Below are positions 5,743-37,422 of a stretch of DNA of 57,764 nucleotides, piece after piece (position 1 is the stretch's first letter; each line of letters opens with the position of its first letter). Origin of the DNA: Synechococcus sp. UW140. GTDB lineage: Bacteria > Cyanobacteriota > Cyanobacteriia > PCC-6307 > Cyanobiaceae. The notes under the pieces are model-generated. The model saw only the letters and a program-made list of their open reading frames with translations. It made no database searches and was not told the origin of the DNA. The translations under genes were made by a program, and so were the position numbers. The stretch is from the NCBI GenBank assembly GCA_945875915.1, contig CAMCMT010000015.1:1-57764 (forward strand). The letters run 5' to 3'.

Positions 5743-5899
5743 CAGCTTGAGGGGCGCAGGGCGGCCTGACCTGGCGAGCTTTTCATGACCCCACCCAGCT
5801 GACCAGAGTGAGCCCCCCAGGCTGCAAACATTTGTTCATGGGGACCCTTACGCCCCATAGGCGAGCCGTAACGTGCCGAAACCCGGTTCGCTCTCGTTC

Positions 5900-8266
5900 A
5901 TGACCGTGACCGCAAGCAGCGGCAGCAGCAGGGTTGCCCCCCAGCGCTACGACACCCTGCCGCTCTCCAGCGTCCGTCAAGCGGAGCAGCAGGATCGCTT
6001 CCCCGATGGGGGGGAACTCGACACCCTCACCACGTTCTTTCAGAGCGGCCAGATGCGGGTGGCCGCCGCTAGGCGGCTCTCGACCAACGCCGAGGCGATC
6101 GTGGCCCGCGCTGGCAACCGCATCTTTGTAGGGGGCACGCCCCTCTCCTATCTGGATGCGCCCCTCACACCTGCTGCCGCTGAGGCCACTCCCCTGGCCA
6201 CCGACCAGGCCGCCTTCCAACGCTCAGTTCAGACCTTCGCCGGCGGCACACCCAGCCGCGGCAACTTGATCACGCGCCTGCTGGCAGGGGCTGGCGGCGA
6301 TGCCGATGTGCGCGTCGTGCTGCCTACGGGCTTCAATCCCATCAGCGTCGGGATCTACGGGACCGAGCGGATGAAGAAATCGGTCCGCGACCTGGCCTGG
6401 TTCCTGCGCTACGTGGGTTACGCCGTGGTTGCGGGCGATCCCAGCATCCTGGCCGTGAACACCCGCGGCCTGCGGGATGTGCTCGAAAAGGGCTGCTCCC
6501 TGGCCGCCACCAACGTGGCATTACAGGAGATGCGCGCCGCCGCCGCTGGCCTGCTCAAGGATCTGCCGGAAGCGCGCCAGCTGGTGATCGACAGCTTCAA
6601 CGTGCTGATCAAGGAACTGGACGTTCCCACCCCGTCTGCCCGCCAGCGCCTCGGCAGCTCCGAAAACCAGGGCCTGCAGTTGCCGGCGACCTACGCCTTG
6701 GCCGCCGAGGGCGCCCAGCGCTTCATCATGCGCAAGGTGCTCAGCGGCGCCCAGAAGGCCGAGGTGGTCCGCGCCGCCTATCGCCAGGTGTTTGAGCGCG
6801 ATATTGCCAAGGGATACTCCCAGGTGGTCTGTCCGGTGGAAGCCACCCAGCTGCGCCAGGGCCAGCTCTCAATGCGGGAGTTCATCCGCGCCCTCGGCCA
6901 CAGCAAGGAATACCGCCAGCAGTTCTATGGCCGCTTCTCCAACAGCCGGGCGGTGGAGCTGGCCTTCCGCCACTTCCTCGGCCGGGGCATCAGCTCCCGC
7001 GAAGAGTTCACCCGCTACTTCGACATCGTCAGCGCCCAGGGCCTCAAGGGTCTGGTGGATTCGCTGATCAACACGATCGAATACGGCCGGGTGTTTGGCG
7101 AGGAGACCGTTCCCTACCTACGCGACATCGGCGAAGAGGCCCAGGAGAGCGCTGGCTGGGGGTCAAACCGCAAGCTGTTTCGCTTCAGCGCGCCCTTTGA
7201 AGGAGCTCCCCAGTACGTCACCCTCTACGCCAGCTACCGCCACCCCTTCGCCGACCAGCACCCCTACGGCGGCGGTAACGATCCCCTAGCGCTCACCTAC
7301 GGCGCCATCTTCCCCTCCGGCACGGCGTCAGTCGCCACCAGAGCGGCCCCATTTAGCTACGACAGCCGCAGGATTTTGGTGGGCAATGGCATGCGCCAGC
7401 CTGGCCAGATGAACAGCCCCCAATTCCGGGCTTCCAGCCCGCGCAAGGTGGGGCCCAAGGTGGTGCGGCTGCAGCAAATCGCCACCGGCGGCAACTCCTT
7501 ACCCCGCCGCAGCGGCCAGCCGAGCGTGCGCAACACCGAATCCAGTACCCAGGGGGTGATTCGGGCTGTCTATGTGCAGGTGCTGGGCACCGCCGGCTAT
7601 GCCGGCGAACAGAACAAGGTGGAGGAGATCAAACTCGAGAACGGCGACATCAGCCTGCGGGAGTTTGTGCGCCAGGTGGCCCGTTCTAAGGCCTTCCGCC
7701 GCCGCTACTGGAGCGGTCTCTACATCTGTAAAGCTCTGGAGGTGATGCACCGCCGCCTGCTGGGCCGCCCCACCTTTGGTCGCTGGGAAATCGATTCCTA
7801 CTTCGATGTGGCCGCCCGTAAGGGCTTCTATGGCGTCGTCGACGCGATTCTCAACAGCAACGAATACGCCACGGCCTTCGGAGAAGACACCGTCCCCTAC
7901 GAACGCTTCATCACCCCCTCGGACCTCAACATCCGTCGGGTGCCGACCCTGAAGCGGGAGCTCGATACCAGCGCCGTCGCCCTGCTCCCCGGCAGCCGGC
8001 CCGATGTGCCCGTGCCAGCCAACTTCCGCTTCAACGGAGAGCTCATGGCGCGCAATCTGTCCGGCCGCTCGGCTCCGATTCGCGGGGGCTGGAGCCTCCA
8101 AATGGTCGACGACGGCCAGGGGTTCAGCAGCAGCCAGCCGGCGGTGCCCGAGGGGCCCGGCAGCATCAAGGACAACCCAGAACCCAGCCGCCGCTGGAGC
8201 GCCCCCCGTTGGCAACCCGGCGGTGGCGTCACCACGTCCTGGCCACCCAACTCAGCCAAGTCCTAG
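5900..8266 (+). CDS. apcE: Phycobilisome core-membrane linker (LCM)
   Basis: ApcE anchors the phycobilisome core to the thylakoid and is a terminal energy emitter. The start at ATG 5900 (MTVTASSGSS) gives 788 residues. Residues ~1-240 form the phycobiliprotein-like domain. The bilin-binding Cys is ~Cys199 in VLEKGCSLAATNVALQEMR, and the domain carries the usual loop insert (~95-135). Two linker (REP) domains follow, at ~270-405 (SMREFIRALGHSKEYRQQF, NTIEYGRVFGEETVPY) and ~545-675 (SLREFVRQVARSKAFRRRY, NSNEYATAFGEDTVPY). The Pro/Ser/Trp-rich tail has no third repeat. Two repeats mark the ~72-80 kDa class found with bicylindrical cores. An intrinsic terminator follows at 8350. Confidence 0.96.
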   Translation: MTVTASSGSSRVAPQRYDTLPLSSVRQAEQQDRFPDGGELDTLTTFFQSGQMRVAAARRLSTNAEAIVARAGNRIFVGGTPLSYLDAPLTPAAAEATPLATDQAAFQRSVQTFAGGTPSRGNLITRLLAGAGGDADVRVVLPTGFNPISVGIYGTERMKKSVRDLAWFLRYVGYAVVAGDPSILAVNTRGLRDVLEKGCSLAATNVALQEMRAAAAGLLKDLPEARQLVIDSFNVLIKELDVPTPSARQRLGSSENQGLQLPATYALAAEGAQRFIMRKVLSGAQKAEVVRAAYRQVFERDIAKGYSQVVCPVEATQLRQGQLSMREFIRALGHSKEYRQQFYGRFSNSRAVELAFRHFLGRGISSREEFTRYFDIVSAQGLKGLVDSLINTIEYGRVFGEETVPYLRDIGEEAQESAGWGSNRKLFRFSAPFEGAPQYVTLYASYRHPFADQHPYGGGNDPLALTYGAIFPSGTASVATRAAPFSYDSRRILVGNGMRQPGQMNSPQFRASSPRKVGPKVVRLQQIATGGNSLPRRSGQPSVRNTESSTQGVIRAVYVQVLGTAGYAGEQNKVEEIKLENGDISLREFVRQVARSKAFRRRYWSGLYICKALEVMHRRLLGRPTFGRWEIDSYFDVAARKGFYGVVDAILNSNEYATAFGEDTVPYERFITPSDLNIRRVPTLKRELDTSAVALLPGSRPDVPVPANFRFNGELMARNLSGRSAPIRGGWSLQMVDDGQGFSSSQPAVPEGPGSIKDNPEPSRRWSAPRWQPGGGVTTSWPPNSAKS

Positions 8267-17207: not shown

Positions 17208-17372
17208 ATGGCCATGCCCCCCTCTGATGGCATGGCCCCTCAGCCGTTCGGCTTGGTCTTGGGGCTCTTTTGGACCCCCTATGCGGACTGGATCTACACC
17301 GTTGTCAGCATCAGCGGCCTGCTGCTGATGGTTTGGCTGGTGCTGGGGCCCCCTAGGCCGCCCGCACCGTAG
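17208..17372 (+). CDS. Probable 54-residue single-pass membrane protein
   Basis: This short open frame starts at ATG 17208 (MAMPPSDGMAPQPFGLVLGL) and continues FWTPYADWIYTVVSISGLLL to a Pro-rich end. One or two hydrophobic stretches (FGLVLGLFW and YTVVSISGLLLMVWLVLG) suggest a membrane peptide. It lies 37 nt after purB and overlaps the 3' end of the convergent helicase gene by 20 nt. A purine-rich AAAAGGGAG lies ~20 nt upstream, rather far for a ribosome-binding site. The amino-acid make-up looks like a real protein rather than antisense noise, but no family is recognised. Confidence 0.5.
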   Translation: MAMPPSDGMAPQPFGLVLGLFWTPYADWIYTVVSISGLLLMVWLVLGPPRPPAP

Positions 17373-20115
17373 CCAGGTTGGGGCTAGCCCCCCCGGGGGC
17401 CAGGTCGATCGGCTCACAGACCGGGAAGCGGTTGATCGCCTTGAGGGCCTGGCGGGCATTGGTGCGCAGCTGCTCGCTCACCGCTTCGCAATAGGGAATC
17501 TGGGCTAGCAGGTCGACGGTGCGGCGCATGATCCGCACCACATCGCCCTCATCGAGGGAGCTGTTGGCGATCAGGTCGTTCCAACTCACCCCCTTGGCCC
17601 AGGCCTGCACCAGGCCCATCAATTCGGCCTCGTACCAAACCGGCACCACCACCTCGGCCTGCTCCTGCTGGCGCAGCAACTCCCGCCGGATACCGCGCAG
17701 ATCATGCAGGGCCTCATCGGCGGCCGGCGGCGGCGGATAGCCACTCCAGAGGTCGGGCCGATTGACCTCGGTAGAAATCGCCTCGAGCACGGCGGCTAGG
17801 TCGGCGGGCTCCAGTTCATCCAGGTGGCCGCTCATCAGGGCCAGGCCAATCCAGAGCTCATTATCGCCGCGGATCGCCGCCACGGTGCGGCCGATTTCGG
17901 TGGGTTCGAGCCCCTCACTTCCGGCCAAACAGCCAAAAAAGCGCAGGATGTCGATCAGGGAGAGGAACGTCTCCCAGTGGCGATTGGCCCGGTGATGGAG
18001 GATCCGCTGGCGCTCCTCGATCTCGATCTCCAGCTCCTCCATGCGCTGGCGTTGCTTGGTGATCTTTTTGCGGTCGCCGCGCAGGTGGGCCGGGTGCAGT
18101 TCCAGTGCTAATTCCAGGTCCCGCACCAAAAGGGCCTGGGCCTGCACCTCACCGGCCAGGTCGTATTGGGGCGTGGCCATGTCATGGCGCCGGGCCATGT
18201 GGGCCACGGCCAGGGCTAGGCCGCCACTGGCCTGGTCCCCATGGCGAATTTCACCGATGTGGTGCAGCACCGGAGCCTGGACCCCCTGGACCTGCAGGCA
18301 GCTCAACTCGGCATGGAGGCTCACCACCGCGTGGCAGGGCACCAGGATCCAAACGTTCTCATCACTAAGGCAGAGCAGCTGGGGAAACTGGCCCGGCCCC
18401 TCGATCTTTTCAACGATCACGGCAGGCGTGACCCGCCCCTTGAGCTGGGGGGATTTAAGGCTGAGCAAGGTTCCTTCGCTGGAAAAACGCAGGGCCAGCG
18501 TGAGCTCATGGGCCAGGGTTTCCTCGGCCTGTTGCTGCAGGATGCGCTGAATGCGGCGTTCTTCACGCAGGCGACCCCGCTGTTTTTCGTAGTCCTCGAA
18601 GTCGTCCCAGGCCACCTCCTCGCCAGAGCCCGTGAGCGCCTCCAATTGCTGGAGCAGGTCGGCGATGCGGGCCTCATCTTCCACCAGATCAAGGGTGGCC
18701 AGATAGCGACCAAAACTGCGCTCGACCAGTTCCTTCGCCTTGGGCAACTCATTGCGCTGGAGCAGGTTGAGCACCATGCCGTAGCTGGGGGTGAACTGGC
18801 TCACCAGGGGATCGGCGGGGCTAGTGGCCAGCTGGCCCGCCTCGCGGACCCCCTCAAAACGGCTCTGCACCGTGACCACATAGCCCTGGGTATCGAGGCC
18901 ACGGCGGCCCGCCCGGCCAGCCATCTGCAGGAATTCACTGCCCATCAAGGGACGATGGCCCCGCTCGGTGCGCTTGCTCAAGGCCGAGATCACGGTGCTG
19001 CGGGCGGGCATGTTGATCCCGGCCGCCAGGGTTTCGGTGGCGAACACCACCTTCACCAACCCCTGCTGGAACAGCTCCTCAATCAGTTCTTTCCAGGCGG
19101 GCAGCACGCCAGCATGGTGGGCGGCAATGCCACGCAACAGCGCCTCGTCGTGGCCACCCTCACGCACGGCCTCCGGGGTCGCCCGCACGAAGGCCTCGAG
19201 GCGGGCGCGGATGCGGGCCTGCTCGGCTTGGTTCACCAGACAAATTTTGCCCAGATCTCGCATGGCCTTATCGCAGCCGCGGCGGCTGAAGATGAAATAG
19301 ATGGCGGGGAGCATGTCCCGTTCAGCCATCTGGGCCACCACAAAAGCCAGGGGCGGCGCCTCTGGCTGGGGCGGCCGCGGCGACTTGCCCTTGCGGTTAG
19401 AGCCCTTCGGCGCCCGCCAGACCTTGCAGTTGGGGTGCAGGCCGGTGCGTTCGTCGTTAAGCAGGGGATGGAGCCCCTTGGCGCTGCAAAAACTGAAATC
19501 CAGGGGCACGGGCCGGAAATCACTGAGCACCAATCGAGTCGGGCCGTGTACCCGGTCGATCCAGTCGGTGAGTTGGCCGGCATTGGCCACGGTGGCCGAG
19601 AGGGCCACCAGCTGCACCGAGGACGGGCAATGGATGATCGATTCTTCCCAGACGGTGCCCCGCTGGGAATCGTTCATGTAGTGGCACTCATCCAGCACCA
19701 CCGCCTCCACGTCGGCGAGGGGGTCATCGCCCCGCTCGACCTCGGCGTAGAGCATGTTGCGGAAGATTTCCGTCGTCATCACCACGACGCTGGCCTCGCG
19801 GTTGACGCTGAAATCGCCGGTCATTAAACCGACATTCTCAACGCCAAATTGCTCGCGGAAATCGCGCAGCTTCTGATTGGAAAGAGCCTTGAGCGGTGTC
19901 GTATAAAACACCTTCTGGCCATGGGCCAGGGCCCGATGGATGGCGTATTCGCCCACGAGGGTCTTACCCGAACCGGTGGGGGCACTGACCACCACCGATT
20001 GGCCCTGGTTGAGGGCATCGATCGCCTCCAGCTGGAAATCATCCAGGGGGAATGGAAAAAGCTCACCGAGGGGGGGGACGTCCCTGGTGGGAACCTCGCT
20101 GGTGGCGCTACGCAT
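17353..20115 (-). CDS. Ski2/Mtr4-like DEAD/DEAH-box RNA helicase
   Basis: This is a 920-residue superfamily 2 helicase. The Q-motif region FPFPLDDFQLEAIDALNQG precedes Walker A APTGSGKTLVGEYA, then motif Ia TTPLKALSNQK, motif II VVLDECHYMND, motif III LVALSATVAN and motif VI MAGRAGRRGLDTQGYVV. A ~200-residue middle region resembles the Mtr4-type arch, and the C-terminal ~170 residues resemble a DSHCT domain. Cyanobacterial and plastid (ISE2-type) relatives act in RNA processing and decay. An Arg/Pro-rich insert lies near residues 245-258. The substrate here is not known. Confidence 0.9.
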   Translation of the reverse strand: MRSATSEVPTRDVPPLGELFPFPLDDFQLEAIDALNQGQSVVVSAPTGSGKTLVGEYAIHRALAHGQKVFYTTPLKALSNQKLRDFREQFGVENVGLMTGDFSVNREASVVVMTTEIFRNMLYAEVERGDDPLADVEAVVLDECHYMNDSQRGTVWEESIIHCPSSVQLVALSATVANAGQLTDWIDRVHGPTRLVLSDFRPVPLDFSFCSAKGLHPLLNDERTGLHPNCKVWRAPKGSNRKGKSPRPPQPEAPPLAFVVAQMAERDMLPAIYFIFSRRGCDKAMRDLGKICLVNQAEQARIRARLEAFVRATPEAVREGGHDEALLRGIAAHHAGVLPAWKELIEELFQQGLVKVVFATETLAAGINMPARSTVISALSKRTERGHRPLMGSEFLQMAGRAGRRGLDTQGYVVTVQSRFEGVREAGQLATSPADPLVSQFTPSYGMVLNLLQRNELPKAKELVERSFGRYLATLDLVEDEARIADLLQQLEALTGSGEEVAWDDFEDYEKQRGRLREERRIQRILQQQAEETLAHELTLALRFSSEGTLLSLKSPQLKGRVTPAVIVEKIEGPGQFPQLLCLSDENVWILVPCHAVVSLHAELSCLQVQGVQAPVLHHIGEIRHGDQASGGLALAVAHMARRHDMATPQYDLAGEVQAQALLVRDLELALELHPAHLRGDRKKITKQRQRMEELEIEIEERQRILHHRANRHWETFLSLIDILRFFGCLAGSEGLEPTEIGRTVAAIRGDNELWIGLALMSGHLDELEPADLAAVLEAISTEVNRPDLWSGYPPPPAADEALHDLRGIRRELLRQQEQAEVVVPVWYEAELMGLVQAWAKGVSWNDLIANSSLDEGDVVRIMRRTVDLLAQIPYCEAVSEQLRTNARQALKAINRFPVCEPIDLAPGGASPNLATVRAA

Positions 20116-27829: not shown

Positions 27830-28603
27830 ATGCCCCCGAACCAAGACACCGCCCCATCCCCCATCGACTCCCCGTTCGCATCCCCCTCGGAGCTCCTGTG
27901 GCAGGAGCTGGGCTGGACCCCGTCAGCCGGGCAGCTGGCCCAATTCCTGACCCTGCAGGAGCAACTGCGCCTCTGGAACGGCCGGCTCAACCTCACGCGG
28001 CTGGTGGAGGACGAAGACTTCTGGATCTCCCAGCTTTATGACAGCCTCTGGCCCCTGGTGGCGCGCCTCAACGGTCCGCCCGGCCCCCTGCGCTGCGTCG
28101 ATGTAGGCACCGGCGGCGGCTTCCCGGGGCTGGCAGTCGCGATCGCCCTGCCCCAGGCCCGGCTGACGTTGATTGATTCGGTAGGCCGCAAGGTCGAAGC
28201 GGTGCAAGCCATGGCCCAGGCCCTGGGGCTGGCCGAGCGACTTACCCTGCGCTGCGAGCGGGTGGAGCGGAGCGGCCGCGAGCGCAGCTGCCGCGGCCAG
28301 TTCGACCTGGCCCTGGCCCGGGCCGTGGCCGCGGCCCCCGTGGTGGCCGAATACCTGGTGCCGCTGCTAGCCCAAGGCGGTGAGGCCCTGCTCTATCGGG
28401 GCCACTGGAGCGACCAGGATGGCAAGGATTTGGAGCGGGCCCTGGTGCCCCTGCAGGCAGGCCTGGAGCGCCAAGAACGCCGCAACCTGCCGGCCGAGCG
28501 GGGCGTGCGCCATGCCCTCGTGCTCAAACTGCTTGCCCCCTGCCCGGCCGCCTACCCCCGGGGCGTGGGGGTGCCAGCCAAAACCCCCCTAGGAAGCCCC
28601 TGA
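27830..28603 (+). CDS. rsmG: 16S rRNA (guanine527-N7)-methyltransferase
   Basis: RsmG/GidB methylates G527 of 16S rRNA. The 257-residue protein has QEQLRLWNGRLNLTRLVEDE, SAM motif I CVDVGTGGGFPGLAVAI and LIDSVGRKVEAVQAMAQAL, then FDLALARAVAAAPVVAEYL. The N-terminal ~40 residues are slightly long. Gene order J-protein/rsmG is divergent. Two small stem-loops and a T5 run lie after the stop (28624-28659). Confidence 0.94.
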   Translation: MPPNQDTAPSPIDSPFASPSELLWQELGWTPSAGQLAQFLTLQEQLRLWNGRLNLTRLVEDEDFWISQLYDSLWPLVARLNGPPGPLRCVDVGTGGGFPGLAVAIALPQARLTLIDSVGRKVEAVQAMAQALGLAERLTLRCERVERSGRERSCRGQFDLALARAVAAAPVVAEYLVPLLAQGGEALLYRGHWSDQDGKDLERALVPLQAGLERQERRNLPAERGVRHALVLKLLAPCPAAYPRGVGVPAKTPLGSP

Positions 28604-29486
28604 GCCCAAGGATTGCCTGACAAGGCATCTGAATACCTAGATGCCGTCCAGGCGTTTTTCTACCTTAGTTAGTCAGGCAGGAAGCAACGAATCTATTTGA
28701 CGATCCCCAGGGGCAGTTGCCCGATCCCATCCAGCCTCCACTCTCTGAGAATGGACGAACCCAAAGATGCACGGCGGCTTGGTGCCGGAGGTGGCGGCTG
28801 ATCAGTGCCTCTGACGCTGGCAGGGAGATGTCGCTCTGGATAGGCATACCCACAGGCAAGAAATCCATCCCGTTGGGCCGCAATAGCTGCGTGTTTAGCA
28901 AACATCATCAGGCCCGAATTGGGGACGGGGCAGTGACCCCTAGCCCAGCCTGGGCACGCCTGCGGGTGGACTCGGTCAGCAGTGCCATAGTTCAGCGAGT
29001 TGCCCATGCTGTTGCGGGCCCTACCAAGTCAAAACGGATTCGCAAAGCGCCACCACCGCCGAGTTGGCCTGGTGCGCGCCCGCCAGCTGCTGCATCAGGC
29101 TCCGCGCCCTATCGCTGGGGATAGTCGGCAGGCAGGGCCCAGATCGGCGAATCCCTGGGCGATGGCAGCTTTGCCAGTAGCCGATACCTGGGGTAACTCC
29201 ATAGCCCGTCGATCAACGGCTGCCACGTTGGCCAAACAAGGGTTAGCAGTCTAGCGACAACCTCAACCTTGCCCAGTTGTTTCGCCGCCTCGCGGGCTTT
29301 CCCTTCCTGGCGAACAAAGTGGAGCCGACCAGGGTGATTCCATGGGCCAGTCGGGCCCTCAGGCCCAACAGATTGAAACCATGGCGATGGGCAAGGGCAA
29401 AAGAATCAAGACCAAAGACGTTTCGGACCAAAGGAGAGAAGGACTAAGGGCATTAGCCTTAGAATTCGGAAACTGACGTACTTTCC
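28604..29486. other. 883-nt region with no supported gene, possible gene debris
   Basis: After rsmG there is a stem GGCATCT/AGATGCC (28624-28645) with TTTTT at 28655-28659, a possible terminator. The rest has only short frames. On the minus strand, roughly 29430 to 29060, protein-like pieces occur in different frames: LALAHRHGFNLLGLRARLA, then KQLGKVEVVARLLTLVW and RSLMQQLAGAHQANSAVVAL. This suggests a decayed gene, but I recognise no family and cannot exclude chance. Base composition shifts toward lower GC near the giant gene. Confidence 0.4.
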
Positions 29487-32400
29487 ATGAATATCGGCAC
29501 GAAAAAAGATATGTCAACCCATACAAAAAATATCATGCTCACAGGCGCACCTGAAGGCGCTCCCCATACCATCATTTCCGCTGCCTTGGCGGCAGCAGCG
29601 AACGCACATGATGCCAAAGCAGATCCAAGTTACTTCCGTGAAGAGATCTTAAGCGCTGGATCCTCGACTCAAAGAGAAATTGTAGCTGTTGCCAATAACA
29701 CGCTACTTTCCGCAGGTGAGCCTTCGGCATCGACGCCTGAAAATCCAATCACACTTGACGATGAGATTGCGCCTCCAATAAACTCAAGCGAATACTGCGC
29801 AGATCAAGTCTATTTTTGTTCGGGCAATTCACCAAATCTCCCCGACACAACTATACAGTCAGTAGACAAGCTCGACGCCATAGCCCTGCAGGCCGCCTCC
29901 ACAAAAGGTGTAGTCCTTATTGATTCCACACTCATCGCAACCATTCCCGCGGACGAATTAAAAGGTTCGCTGGTGATTTCAATCGATGGCAACCGCGATG
30001 TAATAAGCCAAATCACCAATGCGCTTGAAGGCCTGTCCAATATTCCCGTACTGAGGATTATCAGCCATGGCGACGATGGCATATTGAGATTTGGCAATCA
30101 GCAATTTGATTCCACGGATTTAATGTCCAACACGACGAAAATAGCAGCATGGAGCAAATCCCTTTCTGATGACGCGGATATCCTTTTATATGGCTGCTCG
30201 ATTGCAAAAACAGATGTTGGCAAGGCCTTTGCCCAGCAGCTGGCAAGCATCACGCAGGCGGATGTCGGGGCTAGCAGCAACTTGACTGGCAAAGGGGGTG
30301 ACGAAGTTCTTGAGTTCCAAGTCGGCAAGGTTTCAAACACCCTTATTGCCATTGCAATTGATTACGAGAGCGCCAATCTTACGCTTGCGCAAATCACTGT
30401 TACCACCACTGCAGATACCGGCGCCGGTTCATTACGCCAGGCGATTATCGATGCCAACTTAAACTCGGCAAATGATGAGATTATTTTCGCTGCTTCGCTG
30501 TTTACAAATGGCGCCAGCTGGATCACGCTTGGATCTAGTGCTCTTCCAACGATTGCCGCAACCGTAAGCGCAGGTTCGCTAACCATTACCGGGCCCGGCG
30601 CTTCTTCGCTGATTATCAGTGGCAACAATGGCAATAACGGCCGCAATTATAGTATTTTTGAAATCGCATCGGGCGGTAATCTTTCGATTTCTGGCACAAC
30701 TATTTCGGGAGCAAAAACCACTGGCAATGGTGGCGGCTTTCGTAATCTTGGCACCCTTTCAATTACCAATTCTTTAATCTCCGGGAATTCAGGAGGAAAC
30801 GCTGGGGGTGGCATTTACTCTCGCGGCACAGTGAATGTTTCTGGCTCCACATTTACGAGTAATTCCGCAAATTACGGCGGCGGTCTTTATAACACCAAAT
30901 GGTCATCATCCGGAACTGTTTCCAATTCCACCTTCTCAGGCAACACCGCATTTAGACACGGTGGTGGGCTTTTTAACAATGGCACTCTTGCCATAACCAA
31001 CAGCACTATCTCGGGCAATACTGCAACCGATAGCCAATTTGGTGCTGGGCTCCACACCAATGGAACCGTTAACATTGCCAATACGATTATCGCCAATAGT
31101 ACTAATGGCTTGGATTACTTTGGCGCTACCACTAACCTGATTTCCCCTGCAACGGCATCAAGCAACCTCATTACCCAATCTAACCTTGCTTGGGCTACTC
31201 CGGTTACCAGTGCCCAACTCAATCTTGGTCCTCTGCAAAACAACGGGGGGCCTACCCCCACCATGGCTTTGGGCGCTGGAAGTGCTGCCAAAGCCACCGG
31301 TAATCCTACCGTGACTAGTGCCTCACCTGTCAACGGCTTGGATCAGGGCGGCTTTACCCGCTCTACTACGGCGCCAAGCGTCGGCGCATCTGAATATGCG
31401 CAAGTGATTACCTTTTCACCGCAAACTACCCATTCCACTTGGAACAAAGGCGGCAAGGTGATCACTGCTGATGTCAATAGCGATGGCAAACAGGATATGG
31501 TTGTTCAAAATATCGGATATGGCGAACCGAATAACGGGACCAGGCACGACTTTATTTCTGTGTTCCTTGGCAAGGGTGATGGCAACTTTGAAACCAGGAT
31601 AGATACCGCCACTGGCTCCTACTCCAATTGGCTGGGTTCAGGTGATTTTAATGGTGATGGAAAAATTGATTTTGTTACCGCTAATTACGTTGGTGAATCC
31701 ATATCAATTCTTCTCGGCAAGGGTGATGGCACTTTTAATCGCCAAGACATGTCCAATGCCGGCGCTACAAAGTCACCTTCTTTTGTGATCGCAGGCGATA
31801 TGAATAGCGATGGCACAATTGATATTCTGACCACCAATCTAAACAGCAGCAATATCAGCACTTTCCTAGGCAATGGTAATGGCACCTTCCAACATCCAAC
31901 TCTATTATCGACCTCCGCTTTTCCCAGAAGCATTGTGCAGGGAGATTTCGACAGCGATGGCAAAAAGGATATCGTTGTTAACACTGATTCAGGAAACACC
32001 CTTTTTCTTGGCACCGGCACCGGCAGCTTTACCTCGAATTCAACCATCGGCATCACGGGGACACTGACTGTTGCAGATTTAAACGGGGATGGTTTTTCGG
32101 ACATCGCTGGCACCGAAACAAATGTTGTCAAGATTCTGTTAGGCAATGGAGACGCTACCTTTAAGGCTGCAAAAACTTTTTCAGTCCCAGGCGTTGGCAC
32201 ATCTGTTATTGCAACCGACATCAATGGCGATAGATTTATCGATTTGCAATTTACCCAGTTTTATACCAACGCAATTGCAGTGCTAAACGGCAATGGGGAT
32301 GGTTCCTTCAAAGCACCAATTACTTTTGCTACTGGCTCTAATCCTTTTAGCGTTGCATCTGCAGATTTTAACAGCGATACCAAACCAGACCTCGCCATTT

Positions 32401-33302
32401 CAAATCTCAACTCTAAAAATGTCAGCGTCCTATTAAACACGAGCAACTTTGCACCAACCCTTTCGCCAAGTCGGATTGTTGTGGCGCCAGGAGGATCCGC
32501 TTCTATAAGTTCTAATTCCGAAGTCAGTTTTTCAGAGACACAAGCTGTTCCCACAAAAAGCACTATTTTGGGGGTTAAAATTACTAGGGATTTTAGCACC
32601 TTCTGGCCAAGCTCGAATCCGGCACTGTCTTATGTTTATTTGAAATTAAATGGAGTGGCCGTAGGGCAGTTGGGATTTTTAGCTACAGGTACCAATGGCG
32701 CCTACACCTCGGTATCAACGGAGTTTTTTGGCTCCCTATCCTCCTATATTCCGGGAGGTATTAACACTTGGACCATTGGTTCACTATATAATTCTGTAAA
32801 CCTGGCAAATATCAAGGTTCAGGTCTTTTATGATGATCACTCTACACCTGCTATTGCTGTAAACGGTATCGAAGGCACCCCACTCAATTTTACTGCCGCA
32901 AATTTCACCAACGCTTATGGTGATACCGAAAATAACTCATTAGCAAGCGTCAACATTGCAACTCTTCCTACAACCGGAACTCTGAAGCTTGCAGGTGCTG
33001 ATGTTTCTGCTGGACAGATTATTGCTGCGGTTGATCTTGGCAATTTGTCGTATGTGCCCGCAGCCAATGAAAATGGAACAAAAACCTTTATGGTAGCTGC
33101 ATTTGATGGCAATCATTTATCTTCGGCTTCCACCGTTAGCATGAATATTGTCGGGACAAACAATGCGCCAGTGCTTGCTGCAATTGCTGTCAGTGGTACT
33201 GAAGACAATACCTTTGTATTTAGCGCGACCAATTTCACCAGTGCAACCGCTTCCCCCGGCATAGCTTATATTGGCCTTCAAGGAGATATGGGAGCGGGTT
33301 AG
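29487..33302 (+). CDS. Giant surface/secreted protein, N-terminal part (ends at in-frame TAG)
   Basis: This part has 1271 residues from ATG 29487. There is no classical signal peptide. Residues ~128-275 look like DUF4347 (IISHGDDGILRF, ILLYGCSIAKTDVGKAFAQQ). Residues ~300-640 form Gly/Asn/Ser-rich parallel beta-helix repeats (SNSTFSGNTAFRHGGGLFNN). Seven Ca-binding FG-GAP/VCBS-type units follow (~650-990: DFNGDGKIDFV, DFDSDGKKDIV, DLNGDGFSDIA), then cadherin-like modules. DUF4347 proteins are usually large, exported and adhesive, often by type I secretion; no exporter lies nearby. Codons are much more A/T-rich than the neighbours, suggesting acquisition. The frame continues past TAG 33300 to 37046. 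Confidence 0.85.
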   Translation: MNIGTKKDMSTHTKNIMLTGAPEGAPHTIISAALAAAANAHDAKADPSYFREEILSAGSSTQREIVAVANNTLLSAGEPSASTPENPITLDDEIAPPINSSEYCADQVYFCSGNSPNLPDTTIQSVDKLDAIALQAASTKGVVLIDSTLIATIPADELKGSLVISIDGNRDVISQITNALEGLSNIPVLRIISHGDDGILRFGNQQFDSTDLMSNTTKIAAWSKSLSDDADILLYGCSIAKTDVGKAFAQQLASITQADVGASSNLTGKGGDEVLEFQVGKVSNTLIAIAIDYESANLTLAQITVTTTADTGAGSLRQAIIDANLNSANDEIIFAASLFTNGASWITLGSSALPTIAATVSAGSLTITGPGASSLIISGNNGNNGRNYSIFEIASGGNLSISGTTISGAKTTGNGGGFRNLGTLSITNSLISGNSGGNAGGGIYSRGTVNVSGSTFTSNSANYGGGLYNTKWSSSGTVSNSTFSGNTAFRHGGGLFNNGTLAITNSTISGNTATDSQFGAGLHTNGTVNIANTIIANSTNGLDYFGATTNLISPATASSNLITQSNLAWATPVTSAQLNLGPLQNNGGPTPTMALGAGSAAKATGNPTVTSASPVNGLDQGGFTRSTTAPSVGASEYAQVITFSPQTTHSTWNKGGKVITADVNSDGKQDMVVQNIGYGEPNNGTRHDFISVFLGKGDGNFETRIDTATGSYSNWLGSGDFNGDGKIDFVTANYVGESISILLGKGDGTFNRQDMSNAGATKSPSFVIAGDMNSDGTIDILTTNLNSSNISTFLGNGNGTFQHPTLLSTSAFPRSIVQGDFDSDGKKDIVVNTDSGNTLFLGTGTGSFTSNSTIGITGTLTVADLNGDGFSDIAGTETNVVKILLGNGDATFKAAKTFSVPGVGTSVIATDINGDRFIDLQFTQFYTNAIAVLNGNGDGSFKAPITFATGSNPFSVASADFNSDTKPDLAISNLNSKNVSVLLNTSNFAPTLSPSRIVVAPGGSASISSNSEVSFSETQAVPTKSTILGVKITRDFSTFWPSSNPALSYVYLKLNGVAVGQLGFLATGTNGAYTSVSTEFFGSLSSYIPGGINTWTIGSLYNSVNLANIKVQVFYDDHSTPAIAVNGIEGTPLNFTAANFTNAYGDTENNSLASVNIATLPTTGTLKLAGADVSAGQIIAAVDLGNLSYVPAANENGTKTFMVAAFDGNHLSSASTVSMNIVGTNNAPVLAAIAVSGTEDNTFVFSATNFTSATASPGIAYIGLQGDMGAG

Positions 33303-33386
33303 AGAACTACATCCACAGCTAAAACTTATGACATTGACGGAAATAATGTTCTTGGCAGTAATGGTTGGTGGCTTCCAAATTATACT

Positions 33387-36300
33387 TTGAATAGTCCTTC
33401 CTATGTAACCAGTTTTACCAATAATAGTTTTTATCCAGGCAACGAGGCTTATGCATTGATTGATAATCCATTAACTACCCCGGGGGCTTCAAAATCGCTT
33501 CTTTATTCTGGTACGACAAATGCCCAATTTCCTGGTTTTGGATCTAAATCCCCTTCTGCTGTCGCCTCCTTTACTCTGACTGGGGCTGTTCCCAGCACGA
33601 TTCGTATTGGAATCATGACTGGGAATACAGCTGAATCTGGGGCTTTTGGGGCCAGCGGTTTTCAGATTGTTTCTGGATCAATTGATAGCGGCATGACCAG
33701 CGAATTACAAACCAACGGTTCGGTATACAACGGAAATCCTGATTGGTCATTCTTTGATATTACGGGTGGCATCGCCGGCCAAACCTATTCCATCTATGCT
33801 AAAGGCGGGCCCCAAGGCAATGCAGGCATAGGCGCAATCTCTTTTGATTCGATAATGCTTACCTCTTCCTATTCAGATGCAAACAACAATCCGTTGTCCA
33901 GCATCACCATAGAAACTCTTCCCATAAGCGGAACACTGAAGCTTGCAGGTGCCGATATCCATGCCGGACAGGTTATTGCTGCTGTTAATCTTGACAATTT
34001 AACCTATTCCCCTGCAGCCAATGAAAATGGAATCAAGACCTTTACTGCAACTGCATCAGATGGCGCCGCGTCATCTGCAGTTACTACCGTAAGCATAAAT
34101 ATTGTCGCCGCAAAAGATGCACCAACCCTTACTACAATGAGTACGCTTGGCGCCGCCACAGAAGATACCGTCAAAGAAATCACCTACGCAGAGCTACTCG
34201 CCGCTGCCAATGCTGCCGATCTTGATGGCGATCCCCTTAGCTTTCGCATCGATGCCATCTCTTCTGGCACCCTCAACAAATGGTCGGCTTCTCTTTGGCA
34301 ACCCGTCATACCTGGAACCACACTCCTTGCCACCGGAGAAAAAATTCAGTGGCATCCGGCTCCTAACGCAAACGGCACCCTAAATGCCTTCTCCATCTCC
34401 GCCTACGACGCTTCCCTCGCTTCTGCTTCTCCTATTCCAGTTCAAGTCGCGCTCACCCCCGTTAATGACCGGCCCACATTGACCACCATCTCCACCATCA
34501 CAGCCGCCACAGAAGATACCGTCAAAGAAATCACCTACGCAGAGCTACTCGCCGCTTCTAATGCTGCCGATCTTGATGGCGATCCCCTTAGTTTTCGCAT
34601 CGATGCCATCTCATCTGGCACCCTTAACAAATGGTCGGCTTCTCTTTGGCAAACCGTCATACCTGGAACCACACTCCTTGCCACCGGAGAGAAAATTCAG
34701 TGGCATCCGGCTCCTAACGCAAACGGCACCCTAAATGCCTTCTCCATCTCCGCCTACGACGCTTCCCTCGCTTCTACTTCTCCTATTCCAGTTCAAGTCG
34801 TTGTTAACAGTCCCAACTCCGCGGTTGACAGGAAACGGCCCACGTTGTCCACTGCCATCACGATCAGCGACACCGCCCTCAAGATCGGTGATACTGCAAC
34901 CGTCACCTTCTCCTTTACCGAAGCAGTAACCGACTTCACAACCGCTAATCTGACGGCCCCGAATGCCTCCCTCTCTAATCTGTCCAGCAGGGACAGCGGC
35001 ATCAACTGGACTGCCACGCTCACTCCCACGGCTACCACTGCTGCCGCCAATAATGTCATCACGCTGGATTACGAAGGCATGACGGATCTTGCCGGTAACT
35101 CAGGAAGTGGATCCACCAAAAGTGGTAACTACAGTATTGATAACGCTGCAGCATCTGTGGTGGCAGTGCGATCAACAACTGCAAACGGAACCTATGGTGT
35201 GGGCGACATCATCACGCTTCAGGTTCAGCTCTCAGAAGGCCTAGTAATTTCCGGCTCGCCAAAACTAAAACTTGAAACCGGTAGGGTTGATCAATTCGCC
35301 ACCTTCACAGGGTTAGGCACAACGGCCACTGCGAACGACACCCTTACCTTCTCCTACACCGTGCAGGTTGGCGACAGTACTGAAGATCTCGACCAAGGCT
35401 CCCTTAATGCCCTTGATTTTGACGGGGGCACCCTCAAAGATGCGGCAGGCAATGATGCCATCCTCACCTTGGCCCCGCCTGGATCCGCCGGATCCTTGGC
35501 TACCAACGCCTCCCTAATAATCAACACCAATCGCGGCGACACCGTTAATGACCCACAATCTGCGGTGACGACATTCGGATTAAGCACAGGGGAAAGCAGT
35601 AGCTTGGTCACCAAGAGTATTGTCTTTAACCAGCAAACGGATCCCGTAACGGGCGAAACAGTCGTTGCCAATACCCTGCTGTTTTTCGACAACGCCACCA
35701 ATGATGCCAAGGCCTCAAGCGGCCTGCAATTCGGCATTAGCACGACCAATCCCGGCACCGCGACCACGGTGACGAGCACCTCAGATCTGATCAGCTTTAC
35801 GGTGAAGCCGACCGTGACCACATCTGGCCAAGTTAGCAGTATTGATCTTACGAAGGCTAGGAACAGTGCAATCGCAGCATTTGAGACGACGATCCATGAA
35901 GTTGATATTCTCTTCCCCCAGGCCCCGGGCGGGAGCTGGAATGCGCTCTTCAAAAAGAACAAAGATGGCGAGTATCATCTCTTTAACTATAATCCGCTCA
36001 CCGGCCTAGGGGGCATTCTGCTCGATCGCGATGGCGATGGCAGCATTGATGGTGCCCGGCTCTATCTCAAAGATGGGGAACTGGGCGATTTTGATGAAGT
36101 CGTGAATGGTCGGATCGAGGATCCCATTGGCTTTACAACCCTTTCCGAAACACCCACCCTGCAGATCAGCGGTGACGGCAAGGGTCTCACCGTGGTTGGG
36201 GTTGAAGGTACCGGACTTTGGATCTCCCTGGCTGTGTCTTCCTTCAGCTCCTCCTCCCAGAGCAATCTGGAAATGTATAACAATGACCAACCGTCAGGGG

Positions 36301-37046
36301 CCATCGGCGCCACCCTCGGCTCAGGCCCCACAGGCAGCCAGACGATTTATCTAGCCGCCGGCAGCACCCTCAGCTTCCGCTCCAACAATGGCGCAGGCCA
36401 AATCAATACCAACCCCGCCCTCAGCACCAACGCCACAGACAACGGATTCACCCTGGGCCTAGATGTGGACCTCAACGGCATCTACACCGACTTGATGTTG
36501 GACATTCACAGCGCCATCGCAGCCTCGTCGCCGGCCAGCCTGGCGATTGCCCGCAAACAGCTGGGCAGCAGCGACACAATCCTCGATCTCACCAGCATCG
36601 CCGCAACCGGGATCACCCTCAGCCTCGATATCTCCACCGATTGCAGCCACCGCAACCAATTTGGCTTTGTCAAATTGGAACTCGATCCCCTCACCGGCAC
36701 CACCTATCAGATGAACGGTGTCTCCCAAAATGATGGCGCCGCCTTCCGCAGCGCCGTGCTCGGCCAGTTCACTAATCCCTATCAAGGCACAGGCGCCAGC
36801 CATCAGTATGGTCGTTCCAGGCAAACGATCACCTGGAACCTAGATAGCAGTGCTGCTGGCTACTACGCCCCCGTCATGATCACCCAGGGAGGCGAAGTGT
36901 TCACCTTTGGCGCCAGCACCGCCAGCGATGGCCGCCAGCATATGAAACTCCTCGGCACCAACATCTTTGGCTTTGAGGACCTGCTCGCCAGCCAGGGATC
37001 GGATTGGGACTTCAATGACACCAAGATCCGGATAAGCGTGAACTGA
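33387..37046 (+). CDS. Giant surface protein, C-terminal part (same frame after TAG)
   Basis: This part has 1219 residues if counted from TTG 33387, but the frame is open from 33303, directly after the TAG of the upstream part. The order is: rest of an inserted sandwich-like domain (to ~33865), a cadherin-like module (TLKLAGADIHAGQVIAAVNL), two nearly identical 117-residue modules, an Ig-like module (DTATVTFSFTEAVTDFTTAN) and a second Ig-like repeat. A ~500-residue C-terminal region ends in a DUF4114-type domain (GTNIFGFEDLLASQGSDWDF followed by NDTKIRISVN). No start with a ribosome-binding site is seen, so independent translation is doubtful. It is best read as the second half of one 2,500-residue protein. 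GC rises toward the 3' end. Confidence 0.75.
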   Translation: MNSPSYVTSFTNNSFYPGNEAYALIDNPLTTPGASKSLLYSGTTNAQFPGFGSKSPSAVASFTLTGAVPSTIRIGIMTGNTAESGAFGASGFQIVSGSIDSGMTSELQTNGSVYNGNPDWSFFDITGGIAGQTYSIYAKGGPQGNAGIGAISFDSIMLTSSYSDANNNPLSSITIETLPISGTLKLAGADIHAGQVIAAVNLDNLTYSPAANENGIKTFTATASDGAASSAVTTVSINIVAAKDAPTLTTMSTLGAATEDTVKEITYAELLAAANAADLDGDPLSFRIDAISSGTLNKWSASLWQPVIPGTTLLATGEKIQWHPAPNANGTLNAFSISAYDASLASASPIPVQVALTPVNDRPTLTTISTITAATEDTVKEITYAELLAASNAADLDGDPLSFRIDAISSGTLNKWSASLWQTVIPGTTLLATGEKIQWHPAPNANGTLNAFSISAYDASLASTSPIPVQVVVNSPNSAVDRKRPTLSTAITISDTALKIGDTATVTFSFTEAVTDFTTANLTAPNASLSNLSSRDSGINWTATLTPTATTAAANNVITLDYEGMTDLAGNSGSGSTKSGNYSIDNAAASVVAVRSTTANGTYGVGDIITLQVQLSEGLVISGSPKLKLETGRVDQFATFTGLGTTATANDTLTFSYTVQVGDSTEDLDQGSLNALDFDGGTLKDAAGNDAILTLAPPGSAGSLATNASLIINTNRGDTVNDPQSAVTTFGLSTGESSSLVTKSIVFNQQTDPVTGETVVANTLLFFDNATNDAKASSGLQFGISTTNPGTATTVTSTSDLISFTVKPTVTTSGQVSSIDLTKARNSAIAAFETTIHEVDILFPQAPGGSWNALFKKNKDGEYHLFNYNPLTGLGGILLDRDGDGSIDGARLYLKDGELGDFDEVVNGRIEDPIGFTTLSETPTLQISGDGKGLTVVGVEGTGLWISLAVSSFSSSSQSNLEMYNNDQPSGAIGATLGSGPTGSQTIYLAAGSTLSFRSNNGAGQINTNPALSTNATDNGFTLGLDVDLNGIYTDLMLDIHSAIAASSPASLAIARKQLGSSDTILDLTSIAATGITLSLDISTDCSHRNQFGFVKLELDPLTGTTYQMNGVSQNDGAAFRSAVLGQFTNPYQGTGASHQYGRSRQTITWNLDSSAAGYYAPVMITQGGEVFTFGASTASDGRQHMKLLGTNIFGFEDLLASQGSDWDFNDTKIRISVN
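34152..34800 (+). repeat. Near-identical 351-bp tandem duplication in giant gene
   Basis: The blocks 34152-34449 and 34503-34800 are 298 bp each, offset by 351 bp (117 codons), and differ at about eight positions by eye. Both encode AATEDTVKEITYAELLAA to SPIPVQV. The in-frame period and high identity indicate a recent duplication of one cadherin-like module. A more diverged repeat pair (32976-33100 and 33930-34055) lies upstream. Confidence 0.95.
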
Positions 37047-37422
37047 GCCTCCCCATGCAAGCGATCTTGAAAAATAACTATTTTAAAGCATGCCAACATC
37101 GCCAGTCGACTGGAAAATCGTTAGCAACCTGAACCCGTGCACTGCTACCAGTTGGTGCAATTCGGCGCCTTGATGCAGATCGGTCTTCCTCCAGCAAGCA
37201 GGCTTCCCCGTTCCATGGCCCGCCAGGCGCTGCTAGTAGCGCCTGGCGGGCCAAGCACCAGCCATCGCCCTTCCCCGTCAAGGGGGGCCTCAAGGTCACA
37301 GGGTGGCACTTGATAGCCCATTCCCCTATGGACAGACCCTCGACCAAATTAATCTTCATGGCTGGAATTTTGCCAAATTTGCAGGGCTTTTGGCGGACTG
37401 GTGTTTAACACTCATTGAGCCC
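37047..37422. other. Intergenic region after giant gene
   Basis: This 376-nt region separates the convergent giant gene and aldo/keto reductase gene. Its only marked feature is the 15-bp hairpin at 37217-37252. A 93-codon minus-strand frame (37078-37359) has no recognisable protein character and spans the hairpin, so I do not call it. Confidence 0.6.
37217..37252. repeat. 15-bp perfect inverted repeat (strong hairpin)
   Basis: GGCCCGCCAGGCGCT (37217-37231) is the exact reverse complement of 37238-37252, with a GCTAGT loop. It is GC-rich and very stable. Neither strand has a T tract after it, so it is not a standard intrinsic terminator. It may stabilise or end both converging transcripts, or be a dispersed intergenic repeat. 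Confidence 0.85.

Follow-up and report, generated by a model that had tools for sequence, protein, structure and literature searches.

The window, by which we mean the whole stretch of 57,764 nucleotides analysed here, contains on its forward strand a frame of 2,520 codons (29487-37046) whose translation meets a sole internal stop, the TAG at 33300-33302. The 5' half of the gene (29487-33302) yields 1271 residues up to this TAG, and the 3' half (33303-37046) continues in the same frame as 1247 residues open to a TGA. The first start codon past the TAG is a TTG at 33387, 28 codons downstream. These translations bear out two statements of an earlier note on this DNA, i.e. that both halves belong to one frame parted by one TAG and that the 28 codons behind it are open. 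The corresponding contig of genome G000 has identical letters, but as the source of the window it is no independent reading. Because continuous homologues exist on both sides of the TAG, the open, protein-like run of 1,247 codons after it is not a product of chance.

The interrupted gene is located within an insertion of about 8.8 kb (28608-37422), here called the island, that separates gidB from an aldo/keto-reductase gene and was delimited by the gene adjacency in sister genomes and by GC content. In each of the five same-genus genomes compared, gidB has the reductase gene as its neighbour at a distance of 11 to ~130 bp, and the proteins of both genes are 88-97% identical to those encoded here. 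The GC content of the island is 0.47-0.59, with 0.47 in the planctomycete part described below, and that of the flanks is 0.62-0.66. A direct repeat, TGAGCCC, can be read on the forward strand at both ends, its left copy (28601-28607) taking in the gidB stop codon and its right copy occupying 37416-37422. The same heptamer is single-copy at the empty site of genomes G004 and G002, and it represents either a target-site duplication or a microhomology. The upstream part of the insertion (28608-29486; 879 bp, GC 0.59) carries no recognisable gene and gave no Pfam match; a search of the genus revealed no full copy elsewhere, only one weak 46-base match, and a plasmid search returned nothing. An integrase or transposase is a frequent, though not obligatory, companion of an island, and none was detected by Pfam in the non-gene parts of this one. 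The gene nevertheless has the features expected of island genes, namely, an empty site in five of five sisters, best homologues in a distant taxon together with absence from its own clade, and an atypical composition, and the other genes of the window are cyanobacterial (phycobilisome linker) or housekeeping ones (rpoB, rpoC1/C2, gidB and others).

When the block around the TAG was compared with 84,980 species genomes, three loci were retrieved, all of them in metagenome-assembled genomes of Planctomycetota and 80-83% identical to the query; a fourth homologue came from genome G408. The segment 29736-34127 shares 80% nucleotide identity with the planctomycete locus L024, and codons 84-1670 share 75% protein identity with it. 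A sliding comparison along the whole gene revealed that codons ~84-1755 match Planctomycetota and find no match in the own genus, and that codons ~1756-2518 match the own cyanobacterial genus, reaching 98% in a 40-codon stretch, and find no match in the Planctomycetota loci read. The homology switch at about codon 1756 is clean. In agreement with these matches, the GC3 of the foreign part (0.43) is close to that of the donor (0.40) and far from the 0.70-0.85 of native genes, and the C-terminal module (0.65) falls among its genus relatives (0.60-0.69). The donor genomes contain up to 65 related stretches, regarded as paralogues. The empty sites, the composition, the abundance of donor paralogues and the lack of any hit to the nested domain (see below) in the family members and cyanobacteria searched together indicate that the transfer went from Planctomycetota to the cyanobacterium. 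The earlier description of the product as a surface protein is plausible, but the origin of its two ends in different phyla had gone unseen. The L024 record (CAMDHK010000002.1) is named Candidatus Kuenenia stuttgartiensis, a name that looks wrong, and its genome groups in a family with Planctomycetaceae UBA969 and LacPavin.

The layout of the hybrid gene, all on the forward strand, begins with codons 1-83 (29487-29735), a scrap of an internal cadherin-like repeat that matches a repeat located towards the 3' end of a G323 paralogue (L075; tblastn E=8e-13). These codons replace the N-terminus of ~61 residues that the donors share (MNKxKLQQWFKS...LSVELLEIRLTP, including LEIRLTP) and that the gene of this window lacks; no named signal was recognised in this donor N-terminus by Pfam and NCBIfam scans. 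The Planctomycetota-derived segment follows (29736-34750), with 75% protein identity overall to L024, a DNA identity of ~80% up to 34127, and an identity of ~50-58% in the repeats from there to ~34750. It comprises a DUF4347 domain (29913-30347; Pfam PF14252, E=3.6e-35), a choice-of-anchor Q domain that marks the end of the beta-helix region (31221-31397; NCBIfam NF041518, E=2e-10), FG-GAP repeats in six stretches that include the repeat families D3 and D4 (31450-32440, outer limits approximate; Pfam PF13517, E=1.4e-46), the nested domain, and two cadherin-like repeats (34152-34800; repeat D1, 298 bp, 97% identical) that adjoin the planctomycete/cyanobacterial junction. The two tandem copies, at 34152-34449 and 34503-34800, are 97% identical in DNA right at the phylum junction; they stem from a recent duplication that could be connected with the fusion.

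The remainder of the gene (34752-37046) is a cyanobacterial C-terminal module, 66-79% identical to same-genus proteins and composed of Big_12 (Pfam, E=2e-31) followed by a DUF4114-like end whose Pfam match is weak and below the cut-off (E=2e-4). This module is placed 1-14 residues from the stop codon in each of the 14 proteins checked, which differ in length, and its putative role in export is deduced only from this position and from its recurrence. We infer that the export or anchor signals of the donor may have been lost and replaced by a C-terminal sorting module of the host type.

The TAG maps within a domain of ~209 residues (33249-33875, forward strand) that is nested in the second cadherin-like unit, as delimited by repeat D2, found at 32922 and 33876, and by homologue comparisons. 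Since the stop falls ~20 residues into this block, the short product would end in the middle of a domain. In distant Planctomycetota the nested domain constitutes a stand-alone protein of 246-306 residues, and the C-termini of three such proteins (L114-L116), when read by eye, resemble PEP-CTERM tails; two of the stand-alone copies (L114 and L116) reside in one genome, G615. Close members of the domain gave no Pfam match, no solved relative was found, and no relative appeared in the viral contigs searched, in 385 other cyanobacterial genomes or in 299 other members of the family. AlphaFold2 models of the region around the TAG, made from five sequences, had a mean pLDDT of 44.6, too poor for use. 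At the position of the TAG, all four close Planctomycetota homologues (69-77% identical around the site) carry a Trp, as do three of four distant stand-alone relatives, L114, L115 and L116, the last read by eye at this point, where the automatic alignment cut it; L117 differs. No stop occupies this position in any donor-group homologue read. Because homologues and distant relatives alike carry Trp there, the simplest reading of the TAG is a nonsense mutation of a Trp codon that is deeply conserved, which supports the suggestion of the earlier note that a single such change would explain the split.

Taken together, these results make it probable that a giant hybrid gene of recent acquisition has been cut in two by one nonsense mutation and is now either a young pseudogene or a null allele at strain level. 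Some 8.8 kb of DNA would have entered the gidB/aldo-keto-reductase junction of this cyanobacterial lineage. It contains the passenger portion of a Planctomycetota DUF4347/beta-helix/FG-GAP/cadherin protein, joined in frame to the C-terminal module that the host genus also attaches to several other large proteins. Both this joining in frame and the host-type tail suggest that the gene was once translated and probably exported by its host. Later, the conserved Trp codon in the nested domain would have become TAG, and translation should now end after 1271 residues, in mid-domain. A short product that has neither the donor-type N-terminus nor the host-type C-terminal module should stay inside the cell or be degraded; it is probably not exported, because the C-terminal module, possibly the part needed for export, lies past the TAG. 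The frame contains one stop alone and no second lesion, so that decay itself is not evident.

The age of the stop was approached through the single-base changes possible after the TAG. When all of them are counted, 2.4% create a stop, so that one stop is expected per ~1.1% of neutral divergence, and the absence of a second stop limits the age of an untranslated 3' half to roughly 3% neutral divergence, translation not being required. It had been argued before that the open downstream frame speaks against old decay; this is right, but the argument is weaker than it was put, since a recent inter-phylum acquisition that is missing from all five sister genomes has had little time to decay. For the same reason, the gene being a recent arrival, the open frame says little about function. 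The dN/dS values against L024 within the donor part are 0.19 before the TAG and 0.25 after it, and those of the C-terminal module against its genus relatives are 0.23-0.28; they are for the most part a record of the long evolution that preceded the transfer and are of no use in dating the stop. Neither a clear ribosome-binding site nor a clear promoter could be recognised in front of the gene, which may never have been expressed in this host.

Among the alternatives, the one that survives best, although we regard it as unlikely, is that the TAG is an artefact of base calling, of the consensus or of a strain mixture and that the true gene is one intact frame of ~2,519 codons. In favor of this, the draft assembly comprises 92 contigs, and a lone substitution affects a conserved codon of a frame that shows no further lesion along its 2,520 codons. 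Nevertheless, there is no sign of poor quality nearby, frame and homology are undisturbed on both sides, and a single-base substitution error in a contig of 57.8 kb is rare in modern consensus sequence. Unless it is such a sequencing artefact, the interruption is an ordinary nonsense change. It resembles the bacterial nonsense pseudogenes of recently acquired genes in that one stop interrupts a recently transferred frame which is intact in all other respects, and it does not differ from them in principle.

The stop could also be used. With readthrough, whether programmed or regulated, the gene would give two products, a short one (beta-helix/FG-GAP) and, less often, a long one that has the C-terminal module. 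The earlier note had raised this idea, and the open downstream frame of 1,247 codons with its similar dN/dS is the only observation in its favor. A young stop would, however, be followed by such a frame in any case, given the low proportion of stop-making changes. Where readthrough is programmed, the stop should recur in homologues ahead of a coding frame; here the TAG is private to this gene copy, and the homologues have Trp instead. The short form would break off just inside the ~210-residue nested domain and would lack the C-terminal module. The 120 bases after the stop form no stem-loop and fold worse than the mean of shuffled sequences (z +0.97). No tRNA with a CTA anticodon is present among the 36 tRNAs found, a set that is incomplete, w/o His and Ile; this was the outcome of the search for an amber suppressor that had been recommended, and a suppressor tRNA was rejected within that set. 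A reassigned or recoded TAG was likewise rejected, because within the window TAG terminates genes in the usual way, closing 6 of 30 long native-looking frames, including a phycobilisome linker-domain gene (5873-8266) and a DEAD-box helicase gene (17353-20115). In E. coli reporters, mean background readthrough of TAG amounts to 0.01-0.8%, varying with temperature and medium (PMC11126739), and the literature offered no direct precedent on DUF4114, DUF4347 or bacterial readthrough of surface proteins. These data leave the proposal of readthrough unsupported, and we judge it very unlikely. Very unlikely, too, is the related idea that the TAG is a leaky, selected valve, through which low readthrough would let a small amount of the long form of this borrowed planctomycete surface protein be exported, most of the product staying short.

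Two further explanations are hardly credible. If the downstream half were a separate gene translated from its own start, the TTG 28 codons past the TAG would offer one, and C-terminal modules of this kind do occur on proteins of many lengths, but a start at this TTG, which is within the conserved nested domain, would remove about the first 46 residues of that domain, all homologues read straight through, and the count of promoter-like sites is close to that in shuffled sequences. A hybrid created by faulty assembly or binning, for which one may invoke that the donors are metagenome assemblies and the host a draft, presupposes no fewer than two false joins, of which one would have had to preserve the frame, and is contradicted by host genes on both flanks (proteins 88-97% identical in five sisters), by the 7-bp direct repeat at the exact joints and by the downstream part of the gene being sequence known from the same genus.

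The interrupted hybrid gene may be compared with several known systems. Picocyanobacterial genomes harbor giant open reading frames of deviant composition that are unevenly spread among strains (Dufresne et al. 2008, PMC2441476), and the gene described here, of 7.56 kb where more than 5 kb is required, shares with them its great length, deviant composition, patchy distribution among relatives and probable surface location. It departs from them in having an identified donor phylum and an unusual in-frame hybrid structure drawn from two phyla, in an empty site that can be seen exactly, and in the interruption of its frame. Among the giants of Planctomycetota, L024 agrees with it domain by domain and in unchanged order over codons 84 to ~1550, the nested domain included, and L025, L026 and L092 share most of these domains. 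In contrast to the window gene, these donors keep their own N-terminus and run on into further repeats, and the loci read have neither the cyanobacterial C-terminal module nor the TAG. SwmB, a giant surface protein that Synechococcus WH8102 requires in order to swim (PMC2441476), is likewise a giant protein of a related cyanobacterium, a likeness of size and host that does not imply motility.

The locus provides a clear worked example of how picocyanobacteria may gain giant surface proteins, by joining passenger domains of a foreign phylum in frame to a C-terminal module of the host genus at a junction that is empty in all sisters. We propose that the C-terminal module could allow foreign passengers to be displayed, and that such acquisitions can be lost soon after arrival.

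Some related sequences were observed elsewhere in the same genome. A second beta-helix fragment at a contig end (L087; G000:C48:15796-16635) is 57-60% identical to codons 303-549 and may stem from a further acquisition of similar origin. G000:C4 and G000:C9 (part in L088) contain open frames of 10,023 and 8,311 residues, respectively, the former with a DUF4347-like match and the latter with a match to the C-terminal module, and they represent further giant proteins.
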